Assembly (NCBI GenBank): GCA_031213475.1
Contig: JARUPZ010000037.1
Coordinates: 1,676,222-1,740,221, forward strand
DNA length: 64,000 nucleotides
Direction of reading: 5' to 3'
DNA from: Nereocystis luetkeana
Taxonomy: Eukaryota; Sar; Phaeophyceae; Laminariales; Laminariaceae
Under the pieces are notes generated by a model. The model saw only the letters and a program-made list of their open reading frames with translations. It had not been told where the DNA came from and made no database searches. Made by a program: the position numbers and the translations under genes. Positions 8,626-63,576 of this stretch are shown here, one piece after another. Position 1 is the stretch's first letter, and each line of letters begins with the position of its first letter.

Positions 8626-9282
8626 GACGGCGGTATTGAAAAAATCAAAACAAGAAAAAAACGATGGGCCATTTTTTTCTAGTCCCATGGCAGACAGGGT
8701 ACACGAACACACCGTAAACTGTTGTACAACGAAGTGAACGTCATTATTAATAAACACCCTTTTTTTCATTCATCCCAGAACATTATCACCCTTCTATTAA
8801 TAATATAGCTTGTTTGTCACCATTCCCAAGGAGCATTCCCAAGGAGCGTGTTGTATTAATAGTAGTCTACAGCACTACTGTTCTGTACGAGAGTCGTTTT
8901 CTCTTTTTTTCGTGTACTCTCGTTTCGCTCGGACAAACCCGGTATTATTGCGTAATTGTACGATATCGTAGTATGCGTTGCTTTGTTCCGTGTCGAGGTA
9001 GGGGGGGTCGCATGCCACATGTCACACGGGGTGGCGATGTGCTTCAAGTGTCAAGTACAGCAGCAGTATCACATCATACACACACGAAGACAGCACGCGC
9101 TGGGTCTCTCTCCCTCTCTCTCATGCTTGAGGTGCTGTTTATACAAAACTCCGCCGAGTCACGCGTAAGATCCATTCCAGTTGCCCCCCCCCCCCGCGCC
9201 TAAATGTGCCGAGCAGCAACGTTGCTCCCTAACGATAGCGTGCCGAGAAAAAAAAAACATACCCGGGGCGCATACTATTTAT

Positions 9283-9770
9283 TAGCCGGGCGCCTCGGTG
9301 GTTCAGTGGTACCCCCGAATGTTGTTAGTAGAGTTGATTCAAATCCCACCGCGGTGATCATTCGTTATTATTATTATTTCCCTTGCCATCCGACAATGTA
9401 CAGCATGATCTTCAACATTGATCACTCATAACTTTCCTGAAAGACGAAAACCTCGGAAACAAAAGGAAACCCATGCACCAAGTCTACTTCCCTTCCGTGC
9501 CAACTTTCGGCTTGTCTACTCCATTCTCTGTCCTTGCTCCTTCCTTCTCATCACGTTCTATTCTTAAATCATTCGTTATCCTTTTTTCCCAGAAAAAAAA
9601 AGGAATCGACTTCTGAGAGCGCGTAGCGTGGGTAGGCGCAATCAATTAGACGCGAGTCGACGAAGGAAGAAATGTCTGAAGTCTTCTCGCGATCAAAATG
9701 AGGGCACGAACCGCGGTGGGGAGGGAAGGGGGGAGCCTGCTGTGTGACCCCGGATTTTAGTTACTACTCC
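9283..9770 (+). mobile_element. tRNA-derived SINE or composite, plus strand
   Basis: A tRNA-like head at about 9290-9358 has an A box TGGTTCAGTGGT and a B box GATTCAAATCC. Next comes the CCATCCGACAATG block (9383-9560), then the same body as the 8.3 kb copy in opposite orientation (about 9600-9770). It may be one element with an extra module or two nested insertions. Confidence 0.55.
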
Positions 9771-10372
9771 TATACGATTTTAGAAGGGGGAGAGAAAAAG
9801 AAAAGCAAGGAAAGCAAATGGGGACGAAAAAAAGGAAACAAAAAAACAGAAAGGATATCACGGGTGCTGCTGTCGTATACCTGCAACCAAGCAGTGGTAT
9901 TAATAGTACTACTTTTTGTAGTATTAATAGCGTAAGGCGACGTGGCCCCGGCGGGAAAGGTCTATACCGCCTGCTATACTTTGTGCCACTTACTGCAAAA
10001 GCATAGCGACATCGAATACACGAATACTTATTATGTGAATTAACACAGTAAAATTGGCACTCGAGTGCCCATTAATTGCTCAACACTTACTTCCCCATAC
10101 GTACACGTTTGTTTACCGGTACGCCGACGAAAATTCTTCTTGGGAAAAACTTGAAAAAACGTCCGACGTGTCCGCCAGGTTTCCCCTTCCACTGTCCACT
10201 CCGACTTTGATACTCCTGCTGTACGTGCAGGAAACTAGTGTCAACGGGTGTGACTTATTGATAATCGAACGGCAAACTACGAAAACAGTAGCGGCGTATG
10301 TATACTGCTCGCAATGTACCAGGCAATACATTATTAACCTAAAAATAAAACACCGAAAGTTGAAACGTTGAA

Positions 10373-11195
10373 ACGCTAAAATTAGGGCGATCACCAAAAA
10401 CGGGTACGCCCAGCCCGATTCATCTGAAAAACGGGTACACTCTAAAATAAACCCCATCACACGATTGGGCAAAAAACCATATTAATAGTACCAATTTATG
10501 AGGGATGATAATTACAACACTAACACAACAACACGTGCCAGCGGCTATTATTTTGTTGAAAAGTTCGACGTATTTAGGCTGCGCGAGGGCTCAGCTCCGG
10601 GTGGGGTCAGGGCTCCAAGCGTGTCCAATGGGTTTAAGACATATTATTGGTGGCAAGCGTGTCTGGTTTACTTGGTTTCAGAGTGTACCCGTTTAATGCC
10701 CTACGCCATTAATATTAATAGTACAATAGCACAGCACAGCGCAGTCGTTCGTGACATCCGAATATCGGTGCATGCCTCGAGCGCATGGATGTGTAGACGT
10801 ACGCCTGCCTGTAGTCTTACGATGTTAGACGTACCCAGGTTGAGTGGGAGTGCAATGGCGGTGGAAGGTGGAAGGTGAACGAGCTCGGAAGACAACGAAA
10901 GTGCAAAAGAGCAGCCGCAGCAGCAGCAGCAGCAGTGAAACACAGGCGACATACACTATACGCAAGTAGTCGAGAAAAAAATAAGAAGTAGAAACGGTTG
11001 AAAGCTAAGCAAAGCAGGCGTTTATGTCATCGGTATACCGGGGTCATTTCTCCTCGAGAACGGGCACACGCTTTGTTTTTGACCAATCGCATGGCTCGTG
11101 GGGTGCGTTTTCGACTTGATTTTAGTGTGTACCCGTTTGTCAGAGAAAACGGACCGGGTACCCCCGTTTTTGGTCATCGCCTCTAGAATTACCCA
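10373..11195. mobile_element. Non-autonomous element with long inverted ends
   Basis: The left end (10373-10470) and the reverse complement of the right end (about 11075-11195) align over about 100 bases. They share GGCGAT.ACCAAAAACGGG, AAACGGGTACAC.CTAAAAT and GCGATTGG.CAAAAA in the same order. The 0.6 kb interior has no recognisable protein. The size and structure fit a MITE or foldback element. Confidence 0.5.
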
Positions 11196-14904: not shown

Positions 14905-16250
14905 ATCCCCCTCCCCTTCCATCTCTTCTGCTGACCACCACCGCCGCCTTCACGGCCCTCCCCTCGCCAATGCTCTCACTGCCGCGCCCAACCTCCTCTA
15001 CCTCTTCAATATCCACTTCTACCGTTGGTTCCACATCTACGCACCCGCAACTGCCACTAATTCTAGCGCCCTATGACTCAACCAACTCCCTCTACCTTCT
15101 CCACCCGTACCGCTTGCCCCTAGCCGCTGCCGCTACCGCTCTTCTTCACCTCTTCCTCCGCCGCCGCCTCCACAATCCCTCCCCCGCATCGCTTCATTAT
15201 TGCTCCCCCCCCCCTTCCCTATGGCCATACGACTACGGCCATGCATGATATCGAGACCGCCCCCCCCCCCTTTTTATATAGATTGGGTTGGCGTCGGTTG
15301 GCAACGACACTGTAAAACATGCCGCTCACTACGTGAGCTAAACAATCAGGGTACCGTTTTGTTTTTTGGCGGTCTCCCACAGCTGGTTGTCGAGTTAGAT
15401 CATTTGTGCGAGGTAAAGAACCTTCACTCAGCACAAGTGGGAATGGTCGTATCACGTAGTGTTCAAGGTAAGGCACCCGAGAGGCAGTTACATAGTACTC
15501 CCGTTGCTGTCTCTGGAATTGCCTACACCGGAAATTAAATTAACTCATTGGAGCTGTCATCTAAAATGCAAGTCCGCCTCACATGCGGTTCTTAGTAGGA
15601 TGCAGCTCACCCTTCATGTGACTCGCCAGACACCTCACGGCGCTTCGCGCTTGGTGCAAGCAATGTCTGCCTGGTCGGTGAAAACCCGACATGCTCCGTC
15701 CCGGCATGGTAGGGATGCGAGGATCGATGATCATACGACTACGGTCATGCATGAGATCGAGTACATCTCTCCTATCGAGTACACCCCCCCCCCCCTTCTC
15801 TTTCCGCTGCTCCTACCGCTCCTCCACCTCCTGTACCTTCTCCACCCCTCCCTCTTACCCCAGCCGCTGTTGCTAAAGCTATTTCCACCTCCTCCTCGGT
15901 CTACACCGCATACCACCACCCCCCTTGCCCCCCCCCCCAACCTGTTGATCCTACCCCACTCCCTCTTTTCGTTGCTTCTATCACCCCGCGAGGGAGCACG
16001 AGTGGCGGAGGCGGAGGAAGAGGCGAAAAAGAGCGGTAGCGGCAGCGGCTGGGGGCAAGCGGTAAGGTCGGAGAAGGTAGGAGAAGTGGCTCGAGACGTA
16101 GGGGTGGTAAGTGGCAGTTGCAGGTGCGTAGATGTGGAACCAGCGGTAGAAGTGGACAATGAAGAGGTAGGTGAGGTAGGGCGGGGCAGTAAGAGCATTG
16201 GCGGGGGGAGGGCTGTGAAGGCGGGGGTGGTGGTCAGCAGAGCAGGTGGT
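14905..16250. repeat. Inverted pair of 0.27 kb pyrimidine-rich arms
   Basis: 14905-15175 and 15985-16250 are inverted copies of each other. They share the pattern around CACTTCTACCGTTGG and GCAACTGCCACT, plus CGCTGCCGCTACCGCTCTT. They enclose a poly(C)-ended repeat. Open frames in both arms arise from the low-complexity sequence and are not taken as genes. Confidence 0.55.
15281..15795 (+). repeat. Poly(C)-ended dispersed repeat, copy 1 (full)
   Basis: It starts GATTGGGTTGGCGTCGG and runs through GTATCACGTAGTG, GAGGCAGTTA, GCTTGGTGCAAGCAATG and CGGTGAAAACCCGACATG to a poly(C) tail. A poly(C) tract also lies just before its start. It has no recognisable pol III boxes or protein. Confidence 0.65.
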
Positions 16251-16284: not shown

Positions 16285-16648
16285 TACTTCAAAAAGTATC
16301 ACGTAGTGTGTACCAGGTACCTGGTGCCTGGTATATGATAAGGCACCCACGAGGCAGTTACGTAGCATACCCATTGCTGTCTCTGGAAGCGGTCACTCCA
16401 GAAAATATATCGAGTATTTCGACGCCGTCATCCATATGCAAGAAACGTGTCCTCACAAGCGGTTCTTAGCAGGATACAGCTCACCCTTCATGCGACTCAC
16501 CCTTTGGCTCTTCGCGCTTGGTGCAAACAAGGTCTGCCTGGTCGGTGAAACCCCGGCTTGCTCCGTCCCGGCTTTGTATGGATGCGGGAATCCATGGTCA
16601 TACGACTACGGCCATGCATGATATCAGTACGCCCCTCCCCCCCCCCCC
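16285..16648 (+). repeat. Poly(C)-ended repeat, copy 2 (5' truncated)
   Basis: It shares the 3' two-thirds of the family. Between GTGTGTA and TATATGATAAGGCACC it carries about 21 extra bases made of CCAGG/CCTGG units separated by TA or TG; other copies lack these. Confidence 0.6.
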
Positions 16649-22414: not shown

Positions 22415-22715
22415 GAAGGGGGGTGTACTCATTGTCATACATGGCCGTAGTCGTATGTCCGGAGACCCTCGCATCCCTACAATCCCGGGACGGAGCACGT
22501 CGGTTTTTCACCGACCGAGCAGACATTGCTTGCACCAAGCGCGAAGCGCCGTGAGGTGTTGGGCGAGTCGCATGAAGGGATTTTCATGCATATGGATGAC
22601 AGCGTCAAGGTACTGATGTACTTTCTGTTGTGGACACTTCCAGAGGCACCAATGGATGTACTGCGTAACTGCCTCGTGGGTGCCATACCATATACACATT
22701 ATTACGTGCTACGAT
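22415..22715 (-). repeat. Poly(C)-ended repeat, copy 3
   Basis: Reverse-strand partial copy with the CGACATGCTCC-type core, GGGATTGTAGGGATGCGAG and GAGGCAGTTA, ending in a short poly(C) tail on the minus strand. Confidence 0.6.
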
Positions 22716-24298
22716 CATCCCACCCCACAGGCCGCGGTTAAACTGTACGCCACCCCGCCGCACCTTGCTCCCATCCACAAGAAGCAAAAATGAAGTTAGC
22801 CGTCAGCAGGAGCCGCCGGAGGCCCACCAGCCACCCTGGTTCCGCTCACAGGCACCCTACCGGGCCATCCTGATCCCATGTAGGCAGCAGCAGCAGTCAC
22901 CCACAGCTACCAAAAAACAAAACAAAGCAAAACAAAATTAAGTTGCCTACCTTTGAGCTGGTATCGAGCCCGGAACCGATACGTGTACGTACACACAGCA
23001 AAGTGCGGGTACATATGTACGCGGAGCCATGCCAACTATCAATCTTTCGATTGCCGCTCCCCCGACCACCACTCGCGTATTTCAGCCTATCTTGAGCCAA
23101 GTACAGTCTCGACTCGGAACCAAAGATTTTTCCTGGAATCAGGTTGCTCCATAAGTCCTTGATACACGCCCGGGGGGGGGGGGGGGGGGGGGGGATTGGG
23201 GCGGATCTGGTATACGCTGTTTCTGTGCCCCGAAGAACATGATGATGTGCACTCGCGAGTAATTTGGGTAGGCTTCGGCACAGCCGTCGTTGGTGGTGTT
23301 CGTTCTGTGATAATTTCGATAGGTAGGTAGGTAGGTTAGGGGTAGGGTGTTGGCACGCGCCACGATGGGCGTATAAATATCTACAGAGCTTATCACTCAG
23401 TCGAGGTTTGATCTGATTGGCTTAGGGTCAGGATTAGGGTTGCTCTGATTGGCTTAGTAGGGCTAGGGTTGGGGGTCTGGGTTCGTTCTATTCTTCCCGT
23501 ACACACTCAGTGTGTATCAACGATTTCCTCGAATAAGTGATCAGCAGCCCTCGTAAATATAGAACGTTTCGACCGGAATAGTCGTGATTGACGCGGCTCT
23601 TCACCTGAGGAACTACGTACCCGGTATCCTATTTGGAGGACCTTTAACAATCTATCTGGGAGAAGGGATGGAGGCTTAGCAATCTGGGAGAAGGGACCTT
23701 TAGGTTGGTAGACTGTTCAGGTGTTTTGGTTCCTGTTGGGATCAAGGTACGGGCGAAGATCCAACCCAACCCCTGAATCTAACCCTAACCCTAACCCTAA
23801 CCCTAACCCTGACCCCAAACCGCAGCCAAAACGGGCCAATACTCGCGATAAACGCGGCCGCGCCGCGTTTGCATCGAACCAGGAAATTTCTCAGTTGAGG
23901 ACGACGATTCCGAAGCGCAGACCACGCTACGAATTTTTCAAGTCAAAAACATCCCTAAAGATCCCTTCTCCCAGATTGCTAAACCTACTTACTCCCTATT
24001 TGTTGCTGAACGACAAATCTCAGTTTCTGTTTAGACTGTGGGGATGTTCGTCGGCCAAAACCCACACATTTTTATAGAGGCCAGCCAGTTTTTGGATGGC
24101 CGCGGAACAGTATTCATAGTACTGTTAGTACGGAGCTACCTCAAGCGAGGAGACTCAGAAGAATTAGGTGCCATCCCTACAAGGCAAGCACGCGCCCCTT
24201 CACCGTCGCCTTGTTGTGGGAGGTGCGTCGAGTGGGCGTTGCCGGCGCAGTGTGCCACGTGCCAAGCAGCTCAACTCCGAAAAAAACGCCGCTATGGC
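22716..24298. other. Spacer with telomere-like tract
   Basis: No gene recognised. It holds a poly(G) run (about 23172-23193) and degenerate TTAGGG-like stretches (about 23420-23480), followed by the CCCTAA tract. Confidence 0.4.
23779..23812. repeat. Interstitial telomere-like CCCTAA tract
   Basis: Five uninterrupted CCCTAA units. They sit inside a longer dispersed sequence beginning GGATCAAGGTACGGG that recurs at about 59897 with only single CCTAACCCT-like units; a shorter related stretch lies near 30625. The tract is probably a local expansion in a repeat, not a chromosome end. Confidence 0.6.
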
Positions 24299-24302
24299 TT
24301 GA

Positions 24303-24391
24303 CCCTTTTAGGACTGCAGTCCCGTTTTGGGGACAAATTACTTTTAATTTGACTGGTTTGTCCCCAAAACGGGATTGCGGTTCTAAAAGGG
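24303..24391. mobile_element. TTAA-flanked hairpin MITE, copy 1
   Basis: 89-base near-palindrome with ends CCCTTTTAG and CTAAAAGGG and core CAGTCCCGTTTTGGGGACAA. Flanks are TTGA on the left and TTAA on the right. Confidence 0.65.
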
Positions 24392-24779
24392 TTAAGTCGA
24401 GAGGTCGAGACCCTTGTAATTAAGTGCAATAGATAGACGCGGCGCGGAAAATACCGAGGGTATATCCTAGGAGGGTGAGATAAGGAGGACTCTTGACGGG
24501 GAGGGGTGGCCATGGCCAACAGAGGGAGAGGCGGAGCGGGGGGGGGGGGGGGGTGGAAGAGGTACGACATTGACACTGACGGAAGCAGCGCGGTAGTCTG
24601 GTCGGGGAGATAAGGAGCATAAATCAGGAGGAAGTGATGGTGCGAGGAAGGGACACAGGGACACGGGGGAGGGGGGGGGGGTGGAGCTCATTTGTTGCTT
24701 GCCTCAGCATTTTGATGGGTTTAGCGGCGGCGGAGGTCTCGAACAGGACGACAGCAGCAAGTAGTCAGTCAAATTGTTG

Positions 24780-26859: not shown

Positions 26860-28017
26860 TATATGTTGTTGTTGTTGTTCTCACAATTAACTCTGACGAA
26901 GGAGTCCGTGGTCACACAAAGGTGCTGGAGCCCTATTAATAGGAAGATCCGAAAAAAAAAAATCCGAAAATTCGGCTGCCTCAAAATACACGAGACGAAG
27001 AAAGCGCACACGAGCTAAAACCAATGTGCAAACTGAACTAACATGGCCGCGGGTATATCCTCTCAACTATAACATAGAGTACCCCCGTTCCCACCACTAA
27101 CTAACTCGTGGCTGCTGACTACTGCGGGTGCTGTCTGAAGTGCTGCCTGCACCGTACGAAACGCACGGAAGTCGTGAAAACGAAAGAGAAACACACCAGG
27201 TCCTGCCTGCTATCTGGAGTGCTGTCAGAGTGAAGACTCGCGGATATATATGCAGTGAAAAAAGGAGCAATCGAACCTTACTACCACACGAATATCAACG
27301 ATCGCTGTCTCTTCCTGGACTGTCTGACACAAAAAGGTGCAGCACAGTTATGATACCACGTCCGTCCCTGATAATTGCGTAGGCTATTCCCCATGAAGGG
27401 TATACAACTCGTTAAACTACAAAGACCAGTGACGACGTTAATAACAAGTACCGGTAGATACTATTCTGCCTCGTGAAAAACAATACCAGGAGAAAACAAA
27501 CTATGACGCTTCTCTCGTGATGGTGGTGTGCGCGCAGATCATGGGTCTCCGTGCACCGTCTTCCTGCCGCTCTTCATGGCCGCCTCATCGCCTTGGCCCA
27601 ATCCACCCGCTCCTTTGCGCGTGCACTCGTTGCCATTCCCTTCCAGTCGATTTCCTTTCTCCGTCATCCTGAAAAACAAAATGCTCCTCGCACTTGCGGT
27701 TCTGATCTGAAGAATAAAAATTCTCGCGCTGGGGGAGGTCAATCCTTTTCTTCCCCGCACGTCGACGCTCAGTCTCCCTCCTCCCTCGTCGTCGAATCCA
27801 GCCTCCTACCGGCGCAATAGACTGTGCCGTAGTGTGGCCTGTGGTGGCGCCTGCCTCCGCGTACGGACACCCCGATTGAGCATTGCTGCTCTGCCGCAGC
27901 TGCCTAAAAAAGACGCGCGAATCGTAGGTCTCCGTGCCTGACGCACCACGTACGACCCAACTCTACTGCCGCCTGAGCCTCGCGGCCACAGGCAGCAGCA
28001 AGAAGGTATCACTCCTT
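26860..28017 (+). repeat. 1.1 kb repeat, copy A
   Basis: It begins with a GTT run and TTCTCACA.TTAACTCT, ends GAAGGTATCACTCCTT, and aligns with copy C along its whole length. Compared with B and C it has an extra TTAATA at 26935 (CCCTA then TTAATA then GGAAG). Shared short open frames in A and C are unremarkable and I do not call them genes. Confidence 0.7.
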
Positions 28018-28533
28018 ATGTGTATACCTGGTACCTCGTGCCTCCCTCCTACCAGGTATGTACCTAAATGCTGTACATAATAATAGGTACGCACGCCTTG
28101 TCGTTTTCTTACATCCCCTCCATGGCGAGAGGAATACTCGAATGTTCACTGTGTGTGTTCTTCACATTAAACCGTTCTTTCTACCCGTCGACATCCAGCA
28201 CAACCAGTGTCCGTGCCGATTCTTCAATCCTAGAAGAAATACAAGTTCTGTGGTCACAAAGCTACGCCACAGAGATACTACGTTGCCACGTATGTATGCA
28301 GTAAGCACAGCAGTGGGCAATGCAATGCCATGTCGTCATACTACAGTAGATACGACAGGCACGCCATACACATTCAGTGCAAGTATTCGGTGGGGGTAAG
28401 TCTTTTTACTGCACTTATAGTATACACGGTGTTCAATGTTTCAGCTCGAACTGACTGGCACACGGGGCAATACAGGAGTTTTTCATTTATACTGGTACGT
28501 ACTATTAATAGCTAACTGGTATATTCCTTCAAC

Positions 28534-29098
28534 TGTTGTTGTCGTTGTTCTCACATTAACTCTCAATCTAAAAGGAGTCCGTGGCCACACAAAGATGCTG
28601 GAACCCTAGGAAGATCCGAAAACCATAGAAATTCGGAATTCTGCTGCCTAAAATACACGAGACGAAGAAAGCGCACACAAGATACACACCAATGTGCAAA
28701 CTGAACTATTAATAACATGGCCACGGGTATATCCTCTCAACTATAACATAGAGTTCCCCCGTTCCCACCATTAACCCTTTTAGAACCGCAGTCCCGTTTT
28801 GGGGACAAACTACTTGAAGTTTGAATGCTATGTCCCCAAAACGGGACTGCGGTTCTAAAAGGGTTAACTAAGTTGTGGCTTCTGACTACATAGATAGCGG
28901 CTGCTAGCTGCTGCTGTCTGAAATGCTGCCTGCACCGTATGAAACGCACGGTATCATAGTCGTGGACACAAGAGGGGGACACACCAGGTCCTGCCTGCTA
29001 TCTGGAGTGCTCTGCCAGAGTGGAGACTCGCGGATATGCAGCGAAAAAGGAGCAATCGAACCTTACCACCACACGAATATATATCAGCGATCGCCATC
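28534..29098 (+). repeat. 1.1 kb repeat, copy B (3' truncated)
   Basis: It matches the first half of copies A and C, carries the hairpin MITE at 28775-28863, and has an extra TTAATA at about 28708 (GAACTA then TTAATA then ACATGG). Confidence 0.7.
28775..28863. mobile_element. TTAA-flanked hairpin MITE, copy 2 (intact)
   Basis: 89 bases, nearly perfect inverted repeat with ends CCCTTTTAGAACCGCAGTCC, flanked by TTAA on both sides (28771-28774 and 28864-28867). It interrupts copy B of the 1.1 kb repeat; copies A and C are uninterrupted there. Confidence 0.8.
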
Positions 29099-31998
29099 AT
29101 CAATAAAGCATAACAGGTAACTAACTCATACAAATCGTCACTTCTTATCCTTCCCATGAGAGGAATCTTCGATAACACCAAAAAGGTACTCAAACACCGG
29201 CATCGTCTATCCATTCTCAGAATTCTCCGGGCGGGATTGATTCCTGCCTGTCAGCTGAGTATTTTATATATATATCTGAAGTACGGCCCTTCAGGGTGAG
29301 CCTGTGTTAAGATATATGCATCCCCTTTCCCCTGTCGCGGCGTGATTATTTGCAGCAAGTGTCCCCCTTATCACACGCGGCAGGGGTTATCGCCTGCCTG
29401 TAGGATGGTGATCGTCTCGCTCCTTCGCTCAGAAGGCATCCGGTAAGCAATCAAGCAACGGGTACAGTAAACTATAGCATCCAAGTATCCTTGTGTGAGT
29501 GAGAGTACAGCCAGAAACACCACCTGCATAGCAACAGTCGGTCCCTCGGTCCATACTGCATTACACGTTTACATGCTAGCTAGTACTCCGACGACCTTCT
29601 TTGCGGATGTTCGAACCAAAAATGGTTGGCCCCGAGTTTGTTCTAAGTATGTATGTGCTCGATCCATGCTCTTGGACCACGATTTAGCTACGTACCTGGT
29701 ACAGTAGTAGTATTTTGTTTACGCTCTCGCCGACTATTCAACGTAAGCATTGAATAGGATGATGCCTCCTGCCCCGGTCGGTGTGGACCCACCCACACCT
29801 CATCGTGTTCTTCGGTTAGCGGTGACCACTTGGCACTGCCTTGTCCCACGCTAGTTTATTACTGCACTTCGGGTGGGTGTACTTCGCACGCAGAGGCATC
29901 GGACTCCAATGCCGGCGACAAACTGGTCGCAGCTCGATCGTGGTCGCGTAGTCGTTGCCGCGTTGCCGACCCGGGTGCTTCTTTGACTAGGTCCTGCGTC
30001 ACCCCAGTAGTTGCCCACCTCGAACAATTTTGCACACACCGCCGGTTGCTATTAATAGGTAGACCAGTAGAAAAAACAGCCCACGGCACAGCGCATACAA
30101 CACATACAGCGCATACAATACATACAGCGCAAACAACGCATACAGTACGCATCATGTTTTTCGGTTGATGCGTCACTCCACTTCACCACACCCCGGTGCG
30201 TATGCATCTCGGCTCCCCCGGAAACTGTCCTAGTTAGAGGAGCATTGCCGCACCGTGTCTCAACGAATCGTTGATTGACCGCGCCCGGAACATTCATACT
30301 TGTGGTTTCTTCTACGATCATACCGCCTGAGCCCGCTCCTGACATCGCCTGAATGAAGTCTACGCCCGAGAAAGGCTGGTATGATCGGGCTAAATCGAGA
30401 CGGAGAGAACACAACCCCCCTTCTTTTTTTGGCGTTTGGATTCACGTGTCTCGATCATCGACATACATGAAAATAAAAAACATCTCCAAAATGAAACACT
30501 ATAAAAAAACTTGACCGCTCCAACCCGCGGCCTTAACAACGGCTGAGTAGGATGTATAATAGTAGAGGGGGCGGACCGTACGCTTGTTTTCACGATTTAT
30601 TGACGGGCTAGGAGGCCCAGGTGTAGACCCAACCTAAACCCCGATCCAAAGAAAACCAAACCCACACCTCAAACAAGCCAGAAACACGGCTGCCCCCCCC
30701 CGCTTTCAATTTGATTTCTTCATTATTATTACGAGAACACTCTTCTTCTTGCGGAACGTGGAACGCGACTTGCGAACTGCCGGCCACGATTCCTCCCTGA
30801 TACCGAGAGTGAACTCCAGCCCCGTTTTGGGGACACACCACTCAAATTTCAAGTAGTTTATCCCCAATCGTCCCCAAAACGAGACTGCGGTCCTAAAAGG
30901 GTTAACACTACTTACTTCCCGGAAAGTTATTGACGTGTCGTCACCTCTCCTGGAAGATTCACCCTTATTATGACGTATAAATGCGGGAGAGCTTCGACAA
31001 AGTATTTATGCTTAGATTTTTGACGTAGTAGGCGGCCTCTCAGATGATGCCATCCTTTTTTCCACGGTGTAGTATATACTATTAATAAAACAAAAAAAAG
31101 CAACAACAGCTAGCTAGCTGTGAGAGCGAGGATTTCGTCGAAACTCATCTTTGCAAGCTGTGTGTGATATTTCGATCGCGCGTACGACGTGTTTATATGT
31201 GGCCTTATGCAGGAAGTACACTCCGTATATTTATGAGGAAGGCAGAATCTGCAGCTTCAGAATTCAAGGAGTGGGCTGTGTCCATGTTTTTGGGAAAATA
31301 ACAAGATTTTGTTTTTCGAGGTTGTACGTATATTGTATGTGTATGCACCTACCTGGTGGTAATAATGTACATACCAGGTATTTTACTTGAAAAATTTCGT
31401 ACCTTGGCGTCAAACTCCTTGCTGTAGCACACACATTATCATCGATATAATACATTTTCACGAGTGAGAGTGCCACTTTTTTTCCTGGTACGGGTAGTTC
31501 ATTTTTGTTGTGTGTGACGCACACACGCACACAAGCACATACATATACGAGTATATGCGTCGTGGTCGGCGGTCGATCTTGATTATTCTCCACAATGACA
31601 TTACAACCTCTCCGCCACGGACAATCGTTGCCAAGGAATTCGCATAATTACATACCGATATCTTCATACCGGGGGTATTATATTTATATTTTATAAAATT
31701 ATGTTATACACAGACATAGAAGTATATATATCATGCTCCGAGATACCCCGTGCTTCGGATTCGGAAAATAAATCCAACATTTCATACGCAGTACAGATAA
31801 ATAACGTGAACGTGAGGTCGTACACAATGCCACAACAACATAATAAAAAATACAGCAAAGACGCAAAGAACCTCGACGAGCCCCCTCCCCAGCCCTCAAC
31901 CCTCAACCTTCGACCCACACACACTTACTTACTTTCGATCCCACTCTGCCCTCTTCTTCTTCCGCTTCTTCTTCTACCAGACGACGCAACCACCACCA

Positions 31999-32128: not shown

Positions 32129-35100
32129 ATGGCAAAGTCCTGGGGTCTGAGAGCACTGCTAGCACTTGTCACCTTTGCAGCAGCCAGGTGCGATGAGTCC
32201 GTAGTTGTTCGATAATTAATTGTAATTCGATAATTCAATAGTTCGATGGTTCGATGGTTCGCTCGTTCGCTCGATGAATGGGCCAATGCCTCGATGGTTC
32301 GACAAGCGAGAGAGGAGAGAAACATTGGAAGCAAGTATTTATGCTTTCATATCATACGCGTATTTATGTACTCTGTATATATCCTAATAATAATATAGTC
32401 TCACCAAAAGAAAAACACAAGAAGCAAGCTGTCATACCAGGCACCAACACCCAGCAGTATATCAATTGTTTCCGAGGTTTTCTTCTTTCGGGAAAGTTAT
32501 GAGTGATCCATGTTGAAGATCATTGTCGGATGGCAAGATGAAAAATAATAATAGAGTGTAAGCGTTCAGAACGTTCAGTTTAAATACACTTCTCCGTACG
32601 TACGTATACATTTTTTGTATTTTCTATGTCGAAGTGAGAGCGAAATACAACAATACAACAACAGAGTATTATGGGTTATTATGGACTCGGGCGGGGAGTT
32701 TCTTTCTTTCTTTCCCAAGGGATGTTGGTGGTGTCTTTCTGGAATCGAGAAAAAAGTAAACACCCAGTTTGTTGGATTTTCTGGAAAACATGCTCTCCGA
32801 TAACAACACCCAGCAGTATGTTAATAGTATGATATTATTGCTGCCTACCAGGCAGGGTATACGTGGACGGCTACTTGATGCTACAGCAGTACCGGCATCC
32901 TTCTTTCATACCAGGTACCTCTGGTAATAGACGACAAAGTTTCCCCGAGGTTACTGGTGCTGCTGTTTGTTGGTGATGTCATACGAGTACCTTTTTGTTT
33001 TTAAATTACACCAGGTACCTCGTACCAGGTGCCTGGAATACAGCAAGCCGTACTCGTAGTCTGTAGTCTATAGTCTGGAGCTATACATTGACTTGTACCT
33101 GGTAGTGTTTTTACACAGGAACCGTATCAGTACTTACTTGGTTAGACGAAACGTGAAAGGAGAAAGATTTCTGTTTGAAACCTTCAAATTTCTTTTGCTA
33201 GAATCTTATTATCTCGTGGAGTGTACAAACGTGCAGAGGCCCTTCTTGCGAGGGTTGCGCTATTATTCCCTTCGCCCCCCCCCCCCCCCTCCCCCACCGC
33301 CTCCCACCGCCCCCCGTTTACTTGTATGTGTACGCATAGATTGGGTTGGTGTTTTGGTTGACGACGATGCCGTGAAACACGCCTCTCACTGCGTGAGCTT
33401 GACAACCAGGGTATATATAGTAGTACCGTTTTCGTTCGGCGGTCACCAAAAAAAGGCTGGCCGTCGAGTGTGAGGGGAGGAGAAAAAGGATGTTTACATA
33501 TCGTATCATGTAGTAGTGTCTATCTCGTATGTATATAGTAAGGCGCACACGAGGCAGTTAGATAAAATACCGATTATTGCTGTCCCAGGAAAAGGCCACA
33601 AATCAATTACTTCGATGCTTTCGTCCATTGCAAGTCCGCCACACGAGCTGCAAGCGATTCTTATAAAAAAAGAGTAGGATGCAGCCCACCCTTCATGCGA
33701 CTCGCCCAACAACACCCCACGGCGCTTCGTCGCTGGGTTCAAGCAATGTCTTCCTGATCGGTGAAAACCCGACGTGCAGCGTCCCGACATTGCATCTTGG
33801 GATGCGAAGGCCTATCTATGATGACCGTACGACTACGACCATCCATGACATGAGTACCCCCCCCCCCCCCCCCCCGCCCCCTCCCCTGCCGTGTTTGAAA
33901 TGGCTCGTTTTTTCTTGGTCTGTACTTTATTACCAAGCAGCATATTTTAGTACCAGGTATGTTTTTTTTCTAGCAGCGGTGTATACCACGGGTGGTATAC
34001 GTTTCCGTCGATGGAGGCGTGCTGCAGTAAGTCGGGGTAACGCCTATTTTTGCGCTTCTGAGGCTCCTCACTTGAAGAGCTGTACCTTCCCCATACACAT
34101 CTCACCCATTATTAGCCCACGCTGAGAACATTGTGAGCTATGCATGGTCTGTACACGACGCAAGTCTCTGAGGAGGATACAGCAGTAGTAGTAGTATTAG
34201 TATACTGCAATGTAGTATTAATAGTAGAAAGCACGTCGGATGGAGAGGGGTATTGGGCAGCACCCAGAGAGCGAGCAAGGTTGTGGACCTCGAGAAAGTG
34301 TAACCGCTACTACCTTACGTACGTACACATTGTCGGCCTTCTCGTGAGAAACCTGACATCTGATATCATGATGTAGCTTGGATGGAGCTTGGATGCAGTC
34401 TAGGATTCAAGGATAGAACGTAATGAGAAGGAAGGAGCAAATACAGCAAATGAATAGATAGAGTAGACAAGCCGAAAGTTGGCACGGAAAGGGAGGTAGA
34501 CTTGGTGCATGGGTTTCCTTTTGTTTCCGAGTTTTTTTTCATCCGGAAAAGTTATGAGTGATCCATGTTGAAGATCACGCTGCACATTGTCGGATGGCAA
34601 GAGAAAATAACAATAATATGTATTCTAGTTAGGCTGACATCCATCCCCGTTCTGACGGAGCGAGATAGGGGTACTATATACTACCTGGTATAATATTGTA
34701 GATTTCTGGCAGTCAGTGTACTACTCTAGACGGCGGGCGCCTAGGCTACAAACTCACTTAAAATATTTCATACTGACTGGTATTTTGTTTTGAAATTTCT
34801 GGGCTAGAATTTGTCAAAGTCTGTTCTCACGCATGCGGGAGGGTCGATACTGTGTGTAACAGCACGCCTCTCTCTACAAGAGAAGAGTTTACCTTCACTC
34901 GACCCCTCCCCCCCCCCTTTCGTTTCTTTCGTTGGGCACAGTTCTTCCTTGTTCTGCGACGATGTCAACGACTACTTGGACGCGCCCGTGCCTCTGGAGA
35001 GCGACACTGTGATCAAACTGGACGACATCGGGCAGCTCGAATGCCCTACTCCGCAGAGTGGCAGCGAGGAGCTGGCGGAGGTGCTTGTCAGGGGTGGGGC

Positions 35101-35255: not shown

Positions 35256-38200
35256 TGTTATATATGGAAGGCATGTTTGGTTAGGCGGTACATACGGCGA
35301 CTATATATAGCAAGAATGGCTTCTTTTCAGGCGAGAAACAAGGACATGACGGGTGCGAAAGTAGCCCATCGAAGTATTGTAACTCAGCGGTGAGGTGACG
35401 CAGTACGATAAGAAGACAGTAAATTAGCACGGCAAGGTGGCACAGCAAGCAGCACAGCAAGGCAACACACATCAAGCAGTATAGGGTATTCCGGCGAGTT
35501 ATCACATTAACTAGCCACGAGGTAACACAGCAATAGTAAGGAAACACTTTTATCGTTTATTTGCTGACCTCTCACCTTTTCTTCCCCCTTTTGGGGCAGA
35601 TTTATTAATCCGCAAGGTAGGTCCTGAGTCGCCTGTTTTCACTCTTCTTGCCTACGACATCCGGCGAGCAACATCAATAATATTAAGGCTCATCAGGCGC
35701 GTGTCACTGGCGTCAAATCTGGACACCGTCAAAATCGATGATTCTATTCTTGATACTGATGCAACCGGAAGCCGGTTGGGTAATACACAACAACTAAACA
35801 TCTCTGCTGCCTCTAACTGCGCTGCGGTGTCGCACAGGTTCATCAATGTCCGTTTCACGGTGGAGGATGGGGCCTCGCTAATCTTCGATATGCCCGAGAC
35901 ACAGTTCGGGCCCAACGGTAACGTGAGAGAGAAAAATACAGCATTTTGACGAAAGCGTCACAACCTACATACACTAGCAGAGGGGACCAGCTGTACGAAA
36001 ACGAGCAACAACAAAAAAGGCAGGCTGAGAGGTACAGGAAAACAAGAAATTCGGAAGCGGTCATCCTGGAGTTAGCGTAGAACGCGCCCACTCGCAAATA
36101 AGAACTCCAGCTTGAACCAGCCTTCCAGTTTCTTGTTGGGTGCCCTGCACTGTCCTTTACATACCCGAGTAGCTCGTGATTCTGAAGCAAATCATACCTT
36201 ATTTATAGTCTGGTAAGCAGCGTTGTTGAGGTCACGACACGACGGCGACGTTGGTCAAGCGCGCATCATCCCTCCTCCCTGCCGGATATTCGACCGCGCA
36301 GCTAGGGTTACAAAAGTTGGACGAATCACGATCAACTCCATCAGCGTATAATTTGGATTCTAACCTGCTGTTGTTGTCAGATGGTATGCAGGATCTGTAT
36401 GCATCATCGTATAGGACAGATCCAACCCAGGAAACATGAGCTAGATCATGCAGTATACGCAGCTCTCACCCGGCAACATCAGCTAGAGTACGTAGATCGC
36501 ACAGGCAGACCAGAGAAATATGTGCCCTGAAATATCTAGATGATGATCTGTATATGATCTATCTGTAGATGCTCTGTCTGAGGTGTGTAAGCAAGGTTAG
36601 AATACACCTACCTGTTGGTATGTAGAATATAACCATTCCGTACGTATTGATGACTTATCTAACCCGTTTAGAACCGCACTCCCGTCGTGGGGTAAAATCA
36701 CTTGAAATTAGAGTCTAATTTAGGTACATGTACAGTGCAGTACTAAAAGGGTTTCGATTATGATCGCATCTGCCATCCTCAACAATGTGCCCTGCCGCAT
36801 GATGAGCTTCAACTTTGACCCCTCATAAAACATTCCCCGAAAGCGAAACTTCCAACAACAACAACAAAAAAGAAGCCTGTGCACGAATTTTAACTATGTT
36901 CTGTACCTACTCCTGCTTAGCGACTATTTGCTTCAATTGCTGTCCTAGCTCCTTCCTTATCATTTTACATGCTCCCCTACCTTCTACTCTCAAGTCCTAA
37001 GCCGCGTCCAGGCTCCATCTATTCGCTATCGTCGTGGGTCTGTCACCCCCCCCTCTCCTCTCCCCTCTCCCGCCTCCCTATCTGTTGTATACCTGGTATA
37101 TATATAGGTTGGGTTGGCGTCGGTTAACGAGACGATGTAAAACACGCCTCTCGCTGCGCAGGCTTGACACCCAGGATACCGATTTGGTAGTTTATTTGTT
37201 TGTTGTTTGTCTGTCTGTTTGTTTGTTTGTTTGTTCGTTTGTTTGTTTGTTTGTTTTCTTTGGCGGTCACCACGGCTGGCGGTCGAAAAAAAACGTTTTT
37301 TGTGCGGGGGGAACCTTACCTCCGCACAAGCGGGTGATCGTATCACGAAGTGTGCATATGTTCAGGCACCCACGAGGCAGTTATATACTAAGCCCTTTGC
37401 TGTCTCTACACCAAAAAATACATCAGTTTATTGACGCTATCATCCACATGCAGGAGAATCCGCATCAATAGCTGTTCTTAGTAGGATGCAGCTAATCCTT
37501 CGTGCGACTCGCCCAACACCTCGCGGCCCTTCGCGCTTGGTACAAGCAATGCCTGCCTGGTCGGTGAAAACCCGACGTGCTCCGCCCCGGCATTGTAGGA
37601 ATGCGAGGGTCTACGACCATACGAGTACTGTCTTGTACGACGTACATGATACTGAAGATACCCCCCCCCCGCTCCTTCTCGCTTCCTGGCGATCCCTGAG
37701 CTGATGCTTGAGTCGCGACATCCTTCGCGTGGTTTGAGTTGATTATGATCGGAGTGGGATTGTAATCTACACGGGCGGCGAGTATACAGGGTATCTCTGC
37801 TTTTCGAGCCGTCTGTGAAGCTGAAGATCCGCGCTGTCCGACAGGAACACTCCGTTCTTGCTGTTGTGCCATCCAGCGTACACATAATATTTGACGACAG
37901 CTCCAAATACACAGGTGGCCGGGACCTCCCCCCCCTCCCCCTGCACAATGTATGTGGGTATGAAAAACTCCTTGTGGAGAGACATGGACAATGCAACAAA
38001 CTCCACAAGGTGTCGACAACTTATCAATTCGGTACGGCTAATGGTGTGGTACATTGTCCAACGTCTCCCCAAGTGTTTTTTACGCTCATATTGTGGGCGT
38101 CTCGGCCACATGTAATGTGTATTCACCAGCGCATGTTGATATTATACCCTATCTCTTCTTCTATGACAACCATTTAATCTACGTGTATGTAGATGTAAGG

Positions 38201-39641
38201 TCTGTGTGATGTGTGAGGCAGCATCCCGCCGACACCATAGCCAAGCACTATATATATAATTCCTCGTCGAAGCCATGCCCGCGGTCTTTTCCTTGCCTCC
38301 TTGCTTCCCGACGTCAACGCCGCCGTCAATTTTACATCTCCCTCAGATGCCTCCATCGACTCTTCCACCAATACCTTCACCCTTATCCCTACTACGGTGC
38401 CTCCATCAATACCTCCATCAATACCTTCATCAATACTTTTATCGATATTTTCAAGGACTTTTGCATCAAAACCTCCGTGAACACCTCCGTCAATACCTTC
38501 CTCAACATCTCCATCAACGACTCCACCAATACTTCAATGGAATACCTCCATCAGCAAACCTATACCCCCATTACTGATTACAACGACATGTTTTTTTTAC
38601 ATCCATCCATAAAAGCTCCATCAATACCTTCATCATCAATATCTTCATCGGCGAATCCATCAAAATCTCCAGCAATACCCCCATTGACGCCTCCACCAAT
38701 ACCTCCATCAATACCCCCATCAGGATCTTCATCGAACACACTTCACTCAACACCTCCCTCAACACCTCCATCATTACCTCCATCGTGTACTCATTTCTTT
38801 GTGACGATACAGGACGTGGAAAATGCCCCGGGGTTTTTGATCGACGTGAAGGAGGGTGGAACCGTCACGTTTACCGGAGACTTCGTCGGCCAGGAGGTGG
38901 ACAACGTTCGCTCCATGTTCTTCAACGCGGGGAGTATGGAGTGAGTACCCATTACGTGATGATGTCATGATACCATGGTAAAACGGCTAACCCGCCACGC
39001 CCATCCTTTGCGGATTACATACACTGCTGTGCGCTTTCGCTGTGTATCGATAAATATACCCCCCTGGGCGCAGTCTCGCACCGTTCAGGCGACTCACAAT
39101 CAGTGCCCAGTCATAGCGCACAAGCAATTGCGACGGGGGTAGCTTTGTTTTCGTGTGGTAAGTTCAGAGAGCATTCCTTGAAGAATCGTTAGCCGATTAA
39201 ATTGACCACGGTACTATTAACAGTGGTAACAAGTTAGTTTTCTCTCATGGCTTACCTTAAGTACTGCGCTGAGATCAGATACATCACACCCGGGCCGAAT
39301 AATGCCCAAGACACAGAACTTAGCACGGTTTAACCCCACACTGTTCCTGGCTGAGGAGCTACCGGTTAGATTGTGCTTGCCATCCGACCATGTGCAGCAT
39401 GAGCTTCAACTTTGATCACTAAAAAAATTCCCGACAGAAGTAAACCACGAAAAAGGAAACCTATGCACAAGGTCTAGCTACCTTTGATGTCTACTTCCCG
39501 CTATGCTTTATCTACAACAACACTCCAATGTTGTTCTTGCTCCCTCCTCCTTCTCAAAATGCGCTCTTTGCATTCTATTATTACAGTAGATCCTAAGCCG
39601 CATCCAAGCTCCAATCCCACGCCACCGGTGTGGGTCTGTCA

Positions 39642-39676
<35 letters not shown>

Positions 39677-42600
39677 TCTGCTCCTTCTCGCCTTTCTGGC
39701 GGCCCCTAAGCTGGAGTTTGAAGCGCGACACCCTCCTCGAAATGGCGACCCGTGTAGTCACCGAGACGATTTTGAAGCGGGCCTTCCTTCACTACCCCGT
39801 TCCTTGCCATCGACCCACCGTCCCTCCCCCCCACGACACTACTAGCTGCCAGCTGGTCGATGAACTTACTGCCCTCTACTCCGAGACGCCCAAAGGTTTC
39901 CACCGCTAAAGTGGCAACTTTGGGACTCCGTTCGTAATCGTTTAGTTTTTTGTACAATAAACCGTTTTGTCGTATACCTACAGCAGCACGTACATGTACA
40001 AGCGCTCCTTGAGATTGTTCGTCGGGTTAACCTTCCCTTTTTCCCAGATCCCGGGTTCTGGATGAGTTCTGAGAGGGTCCGGCATTTGGGGAGCCTCGTA
40101 AACATCCGGGGACACCCCATACCATACCGTACCTACTGCTTGCTGCTGCATACCCACCCAGTACAATCTGTTCCACGCTATCAATACACCTCTATCTTGC
40201 AGTGCCTCTACTGTATATACTCGTATAGCGTATGCCCAATCAACGTAGTTCGTACCAGGTATATATTAAGACAGCAATCAACGCGTGCCTGACGTATACC
40301 TGATACTCGCTGGTATGTTTTTTTTTGTTGCGTGAGTCAGATTCCAAGGCGATGCACTCTTCCAGGACAACGGCAACGTGTTCAGGAGCAACAGCGGCGT
40401 TCTCAAGTGAGTCGTGGGCAGTCAGCTCCAACCTTGCTGAAGTACCCGCAATCACTTGGCTCTCGCGAGCCTACCCCGTTTGCTGAAGTGCCCACGATCG
40501 TTAGGCTCGCGAGCCTGTACCCCGCGACCAAGGCTACGTACGGTAGGGGGAGAACTGCTTCTACTGATAACAGCAGGGAAGCTTTATTTCAGGGGATCAG
40601 GGCTCCTCTCGCAGCACCAGTGGCTAGGTATCCGATTTCCCTGCAAGTGTCTAGTTCATGTGGGGAATTTTGATTTCGCTACCTGCACCGCCATGCATGA
40701 ATGTGCCTACTACCTGGTAGTGGCTTAAGATTTTGACATCGGTAGGGAGAGTGTGGGTACTGCCGATACCCGCGCAGCCTTGGCCTCGCGGTTGTACGAT
40801 ACAAAATGCATGAACGCACCCGCCAACTAGACGTTTTGACCAAGGAGAAGTCATATACGAAGTATATATGGTAGGCCACCATCAGTGGATTACATTTAGA
40901 GGTATTAGAAGATATGAGAGTATACTGTATGTAGTACAGCACTGTCGGGAATGGTAAGAGGGATGTCTTATCTTTTCACTCAATCTGAAAGTAACTCATC
41001 TTGTTCCTCTAATCATGCACAAAACTGACACGTAACACGTTTGTCTATTCATGAACACACGAATATGATAACATATACCTGGTATGTTTTTTGGTACTAA
41101 TATTTGCATGCGGTAGTATACATCCTGCTGCTTTTTGTGCTGTCACTTCGGTCTAGCCCGGATCGGCGGATCTAAGCCCGGATCGCTCGCGCTTACCTCA
41201 CTGGATTGATTTGAAAACACAGGTTCCGCGGAGACACAACTTTCAGGGACAACAGGTTCCTGCCCATCGACAACATCGACGGCGGATTTATTAGGTGTGA
41301 GACGTGCTATGATATATGATGATGTCGTCATATCAACTCATATCCCTCAAGTCTAGCCCATGGGCACACAACAGGCCACACCGAAAAGCGTGTCTCAATC
41401 GGAAGGAAGCAGAACAAGTACGTACACAGAAATAGGCGCACCACTGCACCGGTATAATACGGTACATTTCTATGGCATGGGTAGCACCCACCATTGCGGG
41501 GGGGCATATTTAAAAGTAATCAACACCTATCATATTCCAGTATTTTTACCAAGCGCGTTCGGTCCTGATTGCTATTACGGGGGACCATAGTAAATAGGAC
41601 CAAATTTTGTTAGTGGCAATAGGTATATATATAGGTTTTTGTCTGTAGCGTAGGTCCTATTTAATATGGTCCCCCGTACTATGTTATACCGTAATATTAC
41701 GGGGGACCATAGGACCAAATACCTCGTTTACACATCTCCACGGGAAAACGAAACCGCAAGGCAGTGCTGGTGGGTGTAAGACGTCCTTTTCGCGCTCGCC
41801 TGGTTGGTTACCCGCTGAGACACCTTCTCCATTGTTGCTCACACTTCCTGCAGGTTTTCTAAGACGGCCGTCTTCGACACCAATGCACGGGTGAGCTGTT
41901 GCTATTGCACTTCGTATGCTATTGACAATTTCTAAAATTGAAGGCGCCAATATTATTCGGACTCCTTTGAGCTCGCTGAAGCGTCTGGCATCGGACTTAC
42001 GCCGTCCGCCATCCCCGAACAATCGCTTGTGTTTGTCCCTGACCGCACCATCAACGCACACAAGTTGGCGACAGTTACAAATATCCCTCTGCGCGAGTTC
42101 TTGGCGACAGCTATACTATCCTTGTTAGGGGGATGGTTTGAGTCTCGCTCCCGATCAACATTCGAAGGCGCCACGCCCTCCCCACCCAATCCAGGGGGAA
42201 ATTGTGGTAAAGGAGATCGTCATCCACACTCTCCATCCACGTTTGACAACACAGCACTAGGAGTCTGACCCCGTCCAAGGGGAAGACTATGACCCACTTT
42301 CTCCATCGCAGTGTGACCGGACTATGATAGGGCTTCGACCACATCCAACGGGAAGCGATAGCCAAGAAAACTGTGACCCAGATTCTCTCCATCGACTTTT
42401 GAGTTGTGCACCACCTAAGGGGAACTGACATCCAGTAACACTCCCATGATCGCCATCGGTGTTTAACCGCACGATAATAGGCGTTTGACGGTGGTGATGG
42501 CTGCGCGGTCGGCAATAATGACCCGGAGGGCACTGTCATGTGAGTGGGGTTAACGCTGGCGTACTCGGTGGGCAGTCAGTCGTCCGATCTTTTGTCGTCG

Positions 42601-53987: not shown

Positions 53988-54096
53988 TATTACGGGGGAC
54001 CATATTAGATAGAACCTACGGCCCATACAAAAACCTGTATGTTTTGCTATTTTTACCAACAATATTTGGTCCTGTTAACTATGGTCCCCCGTAATA
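53988..54096. mobile_element. Second hairpin MITE family, copy 2
   Basis: Ends TATTACGGGGGACCATAT and ATGGTCCCCCGTAATA, same length as copy 1 (109 bases). It lies within an outer GTGGGCCGT / ACGGCCCAC inverted pair (about 53954-54108). Confidence 0.65.
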
Positions 54097-55310: not shown

Positions 55311-55834
55311 TCAGAAGTGAAATCTCGCGCAAGCAGACGAGTTGTTCGCAATGACGTTCGCAACTGAAATCCCTCTCGAAAAATGAAAAGCGTGGTTTAA
55401 GCCCCCGCTGCCTAGCCGGTGCTACCAGGGAAATCTAAAATATACCTGGTACCTGGTATATATTACTAGGTCTGTCGGGAACATAGTGCACATCGGCTAT
55501 CCCAAAACAAAACCCCATGGAGCCTACACTTTATCCCCATACGCGCACATCAAAGGGGGTAATCTCGCCAAAGTATACCAACGAAATACATTGAGCACCT
55601 CGAAAGCAAGAGGCTAACACGTGCGTGCCGGCAGTACGCAAGCCGCATGAAACCACCATGCATGTTCCCGAGAATGAGGGCGTCCACAGAAATACATCAC
55701 ACAGTCCCGTCAATTTCTCGGCCCCAACCACTGCTGCTACACCGGCAGACTCTTCTTGCGCTGCCATTACTTTCTCCATCTCCATCCCTGCTTCACCCCC
55801 CCTCGGACATTAGATGAATTTATTGAAGCTGCCC

Positions 55835-62138: not shown

Positions 62139-63272
62139 TGTTGTTGTTGTTGTTGTTGTTGTTCTCACATTAACTCTCTGACGAAGGAGTCCGTGGTCAC
62201 ACAAAGGTGCTGGAGCCCTAGGAAGATCCGAAAAACGAAAAAAATCGAAAATTCGGCTGCCTCAAAATACACGAGACGGAAAAAGCGCACACAAGATAAA
62301 ACCAATGTGCAAAACTGAACTAACATGGCCGCGGGTATATCCTCTCAACTATAACATAGAGTACCCCCGTTCCCACCACTAGCCAACTCGTGGCTGCTGA
62401 CTACAGCGGATGCTGTCTGAAGTGCTGCCTGCACCGTACGAAACGCACGGTAGTCGTGAAAACGAAAGAGGAACACACCTGCCTGCTATCTGGAGTGAGT
62501 GCTGTCAGAGTGAAGACTCGCGGATATGCAGTGAAAAAAGGAGCAATCGAACCTTACTGCCACACGAATATCAACGATCGCCATCTCTTCCTGGACTGTC
62601 TGACACAAAAAGGTGCAGCACAGATACCACGTCCCTGATAATTGCGTAGGTTATTCCCCATGGAGGGTATACAACTCGTTAAACTACGAAAACCAGTGAC
62701 GAGTACCGGTAGATACTATTCTGCCTCGTGAAAAACAAAACCAGGAAAAACCAAACTATGACTGCTTCTCTCGTGATGATAGTGTGCGCGCAAATCATGG
62801 GTCTCCATGCACCGTCTTCCTGCCGCTCTTCATGGCCGCCTCATCGCCTTGGCCCAATCCACCCGCTCCTTTGCGCGTGAACTCGTTGCCATTCCCTTCC
62901 AGTCGTTTCCCTTTCTCCGTCATCCTGAAAAACAAAATGCTCCTCGCACTTGCGGTTCTGATCTGGGAAATAAAAATTCTCGCGCAGGGGGGGGTCAATC
63001 CGTCTCTTCCCCGCACGTCGACGCTCAGTCTCCCTCCTCCCTCGTCGTCGAATCCAGCCTCCTACCGGCGCAATAGACTGTGCCGTAGTGTGGCCTGTGG
63101 TGGCGCCTGCCTCCGCGCATGGACACCCCGATTGAGCATTGCTGCTCTGCCGCAGCTGCCTAAAAAGACGCGCGAATCGTAAGTCTCCGTGCCTGACGCA
63201 CCACGTACGACCCAACTCTACTGCCGCCTGAGCCTCGCGGCCACAGGCAGCAGCAAGAAGGTATCACTCCTT
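62139..63272 (+). repeat. 1.1 kb repeat, copy C
   Basis: Closest to copy A; lacks both TTAATA insertions and the MITE. It lies downstream of the start exon of the second beta-helix gene, presumably in its first intron. Confidence 0.7.
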
Positions 63273-63576
63273 GAGGGTGAGTCCGGCCTTACACCCGCCA
63301 GAAAGACCTACCCCACTCGCTATTAGCCTGATAGGGCATGCCTCGCAGCATTCCTTGCCGAGGCAGCGAGGGGAACGGAAGTGTATGTGCCTGTTGTGAC
63401 CCTGGATTATATACATACTTCCCGGGAAGTTGCTTGCTACGTATATATATACCTCACAGGAATGGTGGTGTGGTTTCGTTTTTATTGCGGGCGATCCCGA
63501 CATCAACCCTGAGATTCATGTCGACGGCTGTTGCTATTAATAGTTTGTTAGATATTATGATTATTTTGTTGCCCCC

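Follow-up and report, generated by a model that had tools for sequence, protein, structure and literature searches.

TATTAATA as the probable footprint left on excision by a Stowaway-like hairpin MITE in a dispersed repeat of Nereocystis luetkeana

Repeat copies and TATTAATA in the window

The 64,000-nucleotide stretch of Nereocystis luetkeana DNA analyzed here (the window) contains three plus-strand copies of a dispersed repeat, delimited by self-BLAST. Copy A occupies 26864..28017, and copy C, at 62148..63272, is 92% identical to it. Copy B, at 28534..29094, aligns to A or C with 82-86% identity in two separate blocks (28534-28776 and 28912-29094) and is therefore a partial copy, broken up by a TTAA-flanked palindromic MITE. 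One end of the repeat is fixed and (TTG)n-rich, lying at 26864 in copy A, and the opposite end is variable. A set of 26 copies was listed, and 46 alignments run across the first of the two sites described below. Reverse-transcriptase frames lie near the repeat in some copies, but at differing distances, and the repeat is at most a candidate LINE. Six open frames of the window had no match in Pfam, and the window itself had none in Rfam at gathering scores.

The copies differ by short inserts at two TA dinucleotides, which the first-pass annotation had read as TA-duplicating insertions. Direct reading and genome patterns support this at both places. At site 1, copy A has GAGCCCTATTAATAGGAAG / CCCTATTAATAGGAAG, with the scar TATTAATA (CCC-TA-TTAATA-GG) at 26934..26941, in place of the CCCTAGGAAG of copies B and C. 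At site 2, copy B has GAACTATTAATAACATGG, with the scar (GAAC-TA-TTAATA-ACATGG) at 28707..28714, where copies A and C have GAACTAACATGG, so that both sites are empty in copy C. The same word stands in the context C-TA...TA-G, which is the preferred one, at 28503..28510 (a short way left of copy B), 30050..30057 and 63535..63542, and seven occurrences are clustered in 8745..10720 (8745, 8795, 8854, 9898, 9922, 10480 and 10713).

An eye count had put TATTAATA at about 20 occurrences where about one was expected, and the exact figure is close to it, with 19 in the window against a mean of 0.87 and a maximum of 3 in 100 shuffles. Simple repeats aside, it is the window's top over-represented AT-only 8-base word. 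A 262-kb sample, composed of the window and 20 stretches of 9.9 kb round other genome copies of the repeat, and non-random in being centred on those copies, holds 92 occurrences, 77 of them with distinct contexts, where 3.0 (dinucleotide) or 1.7 (second-order) are expected. Among the 16 AT-only 8-base palindromes tested in this sample, with ATATATAT and TATATATA set aside, TAATATTA ranks next with 15 occurrences.

The 105-bp MITE and the states of its target sites

The first-pass annotation had predicted an element flanked by TA that starts with TT and finishes with AA, and such an element exists. Sequences following TA with diverse left flanks led to a hairpin element of ~105 bp with the ends TTACGGGGGACC...GGTCCCCCGTAA, reading TTACGGGGG...CCCCCGTAA, whose start is found at both sites in other copies of the repeat. 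The 262-kb sample contains 16 full elements of 103-116 bp, taken from 19 script rows of which the other three were mispaired ends. Two of the 16 are inside the window, each 105 bp long with TA on both sides, at 41575..41679 (GCTA-TTACGGGGG...CCCCCGTAC-TATG) and 53990..54094 (CCTA-TTACGGGGG...CCCCCGTAA-TAGT), and the latter has a predicted hairpin of -38.5 kcal/mol (RNA parameters). TA stands on both sides in 14 of the 16, the exceptions being L018:9534, with TG as its left flank, and L023:4515, with one extra base on each side. The element is short, dispersed, uniform in length and non-coding for transposase, and it has the terminal inverted repeats TTACGGGGG/CCCCCGTAA and a hairpin fold, as a MITE does. 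A comparison with phage records gave no match.

The genome (465 Mb, 1987 contigs) was surveyed with exact patterns and reversed-pattern controls, and because the patterns are exact, all of these counts are lower bounds. Site 1 is empty (GGAGCCCTAGGAAGATC, CCCTAGGAAG) at 1886 places, carries an insert of 1-30 nt at 159, and has its left flank joined straight to the MITE start (GGAGCCCTATTACGGGGG) in 28 exact matches, with a reversed control of 0 in each case. Site 2 is followed by the MITE start (AACTGAACTATTACGGGG) at 11 places (control 0); in one of them, L072, GAACTA, the 105-bp element and TAACATGG follow one another, and site 1 of that copy is empty. Among the first 100 of the 159 inserts at site 1, 45 are exactly TTAATA, 9 are one base off and 4 are longer with TTAATA inside; 87 end in TA, and the 55 other than exact TTAATA include a remainder of scattered short strings. 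All 84 inserts at site 2 were read, and 31 are exactly TTAATA, 8 are one base off and 3 are longer, which leaves 53 other than the exact form; 58 end in TA and 26 do not. The anticipated bias of the insertions to TA and TTAA is present in both listings. The MITE inserts at a bare TA and duplicates it, and empty, occupied and TTAATA states are found at two sites of one repeat family. As a separate observation, GCTA (TA-GC-TA) ranks second among the inserts at site 1, with 5 of the first 100 of 159, and TAGCTA is below expectation in the 262-kb sample overall.

These counts bear on the opposite polarity, in which an ancestral TTAATA form would have lost 6 bp to give the copies free of TTAATA, an outcome named beforehand as one that would overturn the insertion reading. 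The 26 listed copies might seem to favor it, as 17 have a 6-nt insert at site 1, exactly TTAATA in 15. However, the scarred fraction, which is 20 of 46 in the larger alignment, is inflated, because the genome copies were fetched by their similarity to copy A, itself a carrier of the insert. In the whole genome, the 1886 empty places against 159 with an insert make the insert-free copies a large majority at site 1, so they are not deletion-derived; site 1 is also empty in copy B, which is more divergent, and at site 2 copy B alone of the 26 has the insert. We therefore reject a deletion origin and give it practically no weight.

Which TA is duplicated can be read from an independent empty site. 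The MITE at L028:8952-9056 sits in a second dispersed repeat family, which is present in the window in both orientations with ~68-97% identity (15358-15794, 16339-16638, 22424-22723, 33336-33857, 37250-37635, 48829-48984, 49273-49459 and 55804-56067). Its flanks, joined at one TA and then aligned to paralogs, matched six of them, one in L011 and five in the window, with 72-93% identity. At the junction, five of the six, the one in L011 and four of those in the window, read a lone TA free of TTAA (CTACTAAG four times and CTGCTAAG once), and the sixth, at window 22447-22715, has a gap. Because these empty paralogs hold a single TA without TTAA, the element starts with TTACGGGG (TTGCGGGG in the L028 copy) and duplicates the outer TA. 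The MITE L020:9738 aligns to one place with 70% identity that reads ACAAGC and contains neither TTAA nor the TA, and two L018 MITEs align only with each other or themselves and are uninformative for the empty site. Altogether, empty paralogs with a single TA were found at three sites, which is the TA target-site duplication of the Tc1/mariner superfamily (Stowaway type).

The ends can also be read as TATTA...TAATA, with the inner TA duplicated as well, and on that basis the element could be CGGGGG...CCCCCG inserting into an existing TATTAATA, which would then be the target rather than the residue. The empty sites speak against this, as single-TA, TTAA-free forms are found 1886 times at site 1, in copies A and C at site 2 and in 5 of the 6 L028:8952 paralogs, and this reading, being very improbable, was rejected on these grounds. 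Two established element types were also set aside. A piggyBac element duplicates TTAA and excises footprint-free, and it is ruled out by empty sites that hold TA and scars that read TATTAATA. PIF/Harbinger elements (Tourist) make a 3-bp TTA/TAA duplication and mostly excise precisely, but the empty sites here hold TA alone, and TTA...TAA are inverted ends and not a direct repeat.

The scar and the MITE have a common target preference, because C is enriched at the flanks of both, standing outside the TA at 22 of 31 MITE TA flanks (mispaired rows contribute two of the 31, both lacking C) and on 84 of 154 sides of TATTAATA scars, against a C before 20% of all TA in the 262-kb sample. The corresponding share is 12% for TACCWGGTA words and 0.45 for TAC(A/T)GTA words, and since the latter show the preference too, it cannot by itself single out one element. 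The strong over-representation of TATTAATA would also suit a functional motif under selection, such as a promoter, factor-binding or splicing signal. We regard this as highly unlikely, given that TATTAATA arises by TA-duplicating insertion in repeat copies, at sites that the MITE also occupies, and that its flanks show the MITE's own target preference. Over-represented palindromes may accordingly be transposon scars and not regulatory motifs, which serves as a warning for motif searches.

We read 24 of the 28 occupied places at site 1. The MITE lies one way in 13 and the opposite way in 9, and its orientation is not assignable in 2; the right MITE end is directly followed by TA in 17 and is damaged, displaced or missing in 7. 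Two of these places, L054 and L055, are 22 kb apart and alike, and may be a single duplicated copy. As the MITEs at site 1 differ in sequence and are found in both orientations, the same TA has been entered more than once, and probably many times. In L069 a MITE stands at the first TA of an older TATTAATA, which is a re-insertion after excision, and L053 and L070 are read as MITE entry into a CCCTAATAGG form. Tandem scars are also present at site 1 (for example TTATATTAATA and TTAATTATTAATA) and agree with a course of insertion, loss and re-insertion.

A tree of 42 copies served to assess the independence of the scars. The inserted letters were left out of it, as were two copies whose site 1 is damaged and partial or <88% matches, copy B included. 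The scar label changes 9 times on this tree (8-9 in bootstraps) against a mean of 14 for shuffled labels, of which 3-4 in 500 need no more changes than that, suggesting that scars are partly inherited and partly independent; the well-supported branches force at least 2 changes. A pairwise table of 36 non-tandem indels of 6 bp, with TA duplicated in 22 and TTAA in 18 of those 22, overstates independence, because 15 of the 18 TTAA events are site 1. The high-copy repeat offers a natural assay, in which the same TA is seen in about two thousand copies as empty, occupied or scarred, so that excision products, target preference and the reuse of one site become countable.

Footprint formation and comparison with known transposons

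We consider it very likely that TATTAATA is the excision footprint of this Stowaway-like hairpin MITE (~105 bp, TTACGGGG...CCCCGTAA), which inserts at TA with a preference for C-TA-G and duplicates the TA. The standing scars point to excision that keeps both TAs and terminal bases, as in Stowaway elements of the Tc1/mariner type. In the mechanism that we propose, a TA-specific transposase supplied in trans would excise the MITE by cutting both ends in a staggered manner, three bases in, leaving 3-nt 3′ overhangs, TTA, on both flanks. The terminal TA of the two overhangs would pair, one base would be filled in per side, and ligation would give TA-TTAA-TA. If the overhangs overlapped along all 3 nt, leaving a T:T mismatch, the rarer product TA-T(T/A)A-TA would form. 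Overhangs of 2 or 3 bases at the 3′ ends are reported for Tc1/mariner elements in PMC3878927.

Among the residue combinations tested, TTAA stands out, with 77 distinct sites where 2.95 are expected. The residues TA (285 versus 39) and TAA (69 versus 22) are enriched as well, yet they overlap AT-rich simple repeats and are without flank preference, and GTAA (16 versus 5.5) is a weaker candidate. T(T/A)A products make up 2 of the first 100 of the 159 inserts at site 1 and 5 of the 84 at site 2. A second major product of the form TA-T(T/A)A-TA was rejected, and this form is used in site-specific cases only, because the TAATA/TTATA words as a class are without the C-TA-G preference.

The main rival to transposase-mediated excision is loss of the MITE between its inner TAs (TAT-TA-CGGGG...CCCCG-TA-ATA), through replication slippage or microhomology-mediated repair that bridges the hairpin. 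It would likewise give TATTAATA, since recombination between the inner TAs, which form a direct repeat, yields exactly this word, and the MITE folds into a strong hairpin; a few site 1 inserts (TTA in 3 and ATA in 1 of the first 100) also resemble joins of an inner with an outer TA. On the other side, T(T/A)A products would follow from overhangs of 3 nt but not from joining TA to TA; words shaped like the Sleeping Beauty footprint, TA-C(A/T)G-TA, are enriched too (78 versus 26 or 42); and the spread and repeated insertion of the MITE imply that a working transposase once existed. The outer TA pair would be equally usable for slippage, but such joins would be traceless and uncountable, so that this point is not decisive. 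On balance we hold slippage to be unlikely, though it deserves more weight than the other alternatives to a transposase footprint.

Stowaway elements are among the closest known counterparts of the MITE. The Stowaway elements of PMC1925063 and the rice OsMar 14T32 element (PMC4561436) are short TA-flanked hairpins like the MITE here, their excision retains both TAs and a few terminal bases, and they insert repeatedly at one TA, also beside an older footprint. The termini differ from those of Stowaway, being TTACGGGGG here. In PMC1925063, a Stowaway element in a Triticeae beta-amylase intron left five unequal footprints of TIR fragments, whereas the commonest footprint here is a single symmetric TTAA; most rice excisions are described in PMC4423477 as showing deletions and filler. 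Because these two sources describe mixed footprints, the regular TTAA is unusual, and this regularity sets the MITE apart from the mixed footprints of grass Stowaway elements. It raises the question of which end feature or host repair makes TTAA so regular. The papers compared read excision footprints at single loci or between two genomes, whereas the states of a site are countable here, unlike in the Stowaway cases, through the many copies of one repeat. Full-text searches of open-licence papers turned up no description of a TATTAATA footprint, and TTACGGGG is absent from the eight papers listed of 5,715 matches.

The ends of the mariner element Hsmar1 start with TTA, as do those of the MITE here. 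According to PMC3878927, Hsmar1 targets TA and leaves the footprint T(T/A)A, which equals the minor product here, and the two differ in that TTAA is the major product here and T(T/A)A is rare. In the same source, the Tc1-like elements Sleeping Beauty and Frog Prince also target TA and leave C(A/T)G plus TA; TAC(A/T)GTA is mildly enriched here, and no element with ends of the Sleeping Beauty or Frog Prince type was found in the stretches examined. With piggyBac, the MITE has only the letters TTAA in common, as piggyBac duplicates TTAA and is footprint-free in that account (PMC3878927), whereas here TA is the target and TTAA the residue.

The label Tc1/mariner-like, given by the first-pass annotation, is supported by the anatomy (TA duplication and residual bases). 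Profile searches of the genome with DDE_3 (PF13358; control positive in 3 of 14 genomes, all bacteria or archaea) and with Transposase_1 (PF01359; control silent) each gave 0 hits. Likewise, Pfam revealed no transposase when ten long frames from the fetched stretches were compared with it; these comprised three reverse transcriptases, one endonuclease, one PPR protein, one weak gag-like frame and four with no match. Because these searches found no transposase, we use Stowaway-like for anatomy and behavior and not for membership in Tc1/mariner.

Other TA-flanked words and palindromic elements

Scars had been put forward as a main source of the genome's short-motif texture. This stands for TATTAATA; for other enriched TA-flanked words the pattern is present, but a source element is lacking. 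In the 262-kb sample, TACCWGGTA occurs 148 times where 1.7 are expected, and a terminal-inverted-repeat search of ~300 kb for its source element gave nothing convincing. TACGTA (166 versus 52) and TAC(A/T)GTA (78 versus 26) are also in excess, although second-order expectations of 78 and 42 reduce this to about twofold enrichment, and TACCGGTA occurs 34 times, 19 with distinct contexts, where 3.4 are expected. In the window, TACCAGGTA/TACCTGGTA, the words with 148 occurrences in the sample, occur 27 times (for example at 28025, 28050, 47740, 55443 and 55450) and are more over-represented than TATTAATA; the base beside their TA is mostly G or A, not C, and they look like a second scar class.

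Fifteen insertions of at least 5 nt are private to one aligned repeat copy, of which 6 duplicate TA and 9 do not. The TA-duplicating inserts are TTAA (copy B), CCAGG (L044), CTAG (L036), CCTTG (L009), CTG (L020) and TCA (copy B). TTAA, CCAGG, CTAG and CTG are palindromes, either perfect or around a central A/T, as annealing of two identical overhangs would produce, and CCTTG and TCA are not. At a single TA, copy A position 27378 (flanks GATAATTGCGTAN/GGCTATTC), CCAGG is found in L044 and CTAG in L036.

Several TA-specific families may each have left a self-complementary residue as a barcode, namely TTAA (with the MITE as its probable source), CC(A/T)GG, CTAG, C(A/T)G, CG and CCGG, a suggestion that we advance tentatively, at somewhat less than even confidence. 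Annealing of two identical 3′ overhangs predicts residues that are perfect palindromes or palindromes around one central A/T. As the source elements of the other word classes were not found in ~300 kb, their status as scars remains a proposal. If it is true, some of the short words in greatest excess would record past excisions and the cutting stagger of each transposase (2 to 5 nt).

Further repeats were noted in the window. A palindromic element of ~97 bp (ACCCTTTTAGAACCGCAGTCCC...) lies at 24299-24395, 28771-28867, 30811-30905 and 60945-61041; the one at 28771 is TTAA-flanked and interrupts copy B, and the element looks like a hairpin MITE of the piggyBac type (TTAA-duplicating). Two degenerate tandem arrays, with units of 11 bp (CCCACGGACAC) and 12 bp (CCTCCATCAATA), occupy 42909-43678 and 38349-38798, respectively, and a short interstitial telomere-like array with a CTAACC unit is located at 23763-23815.
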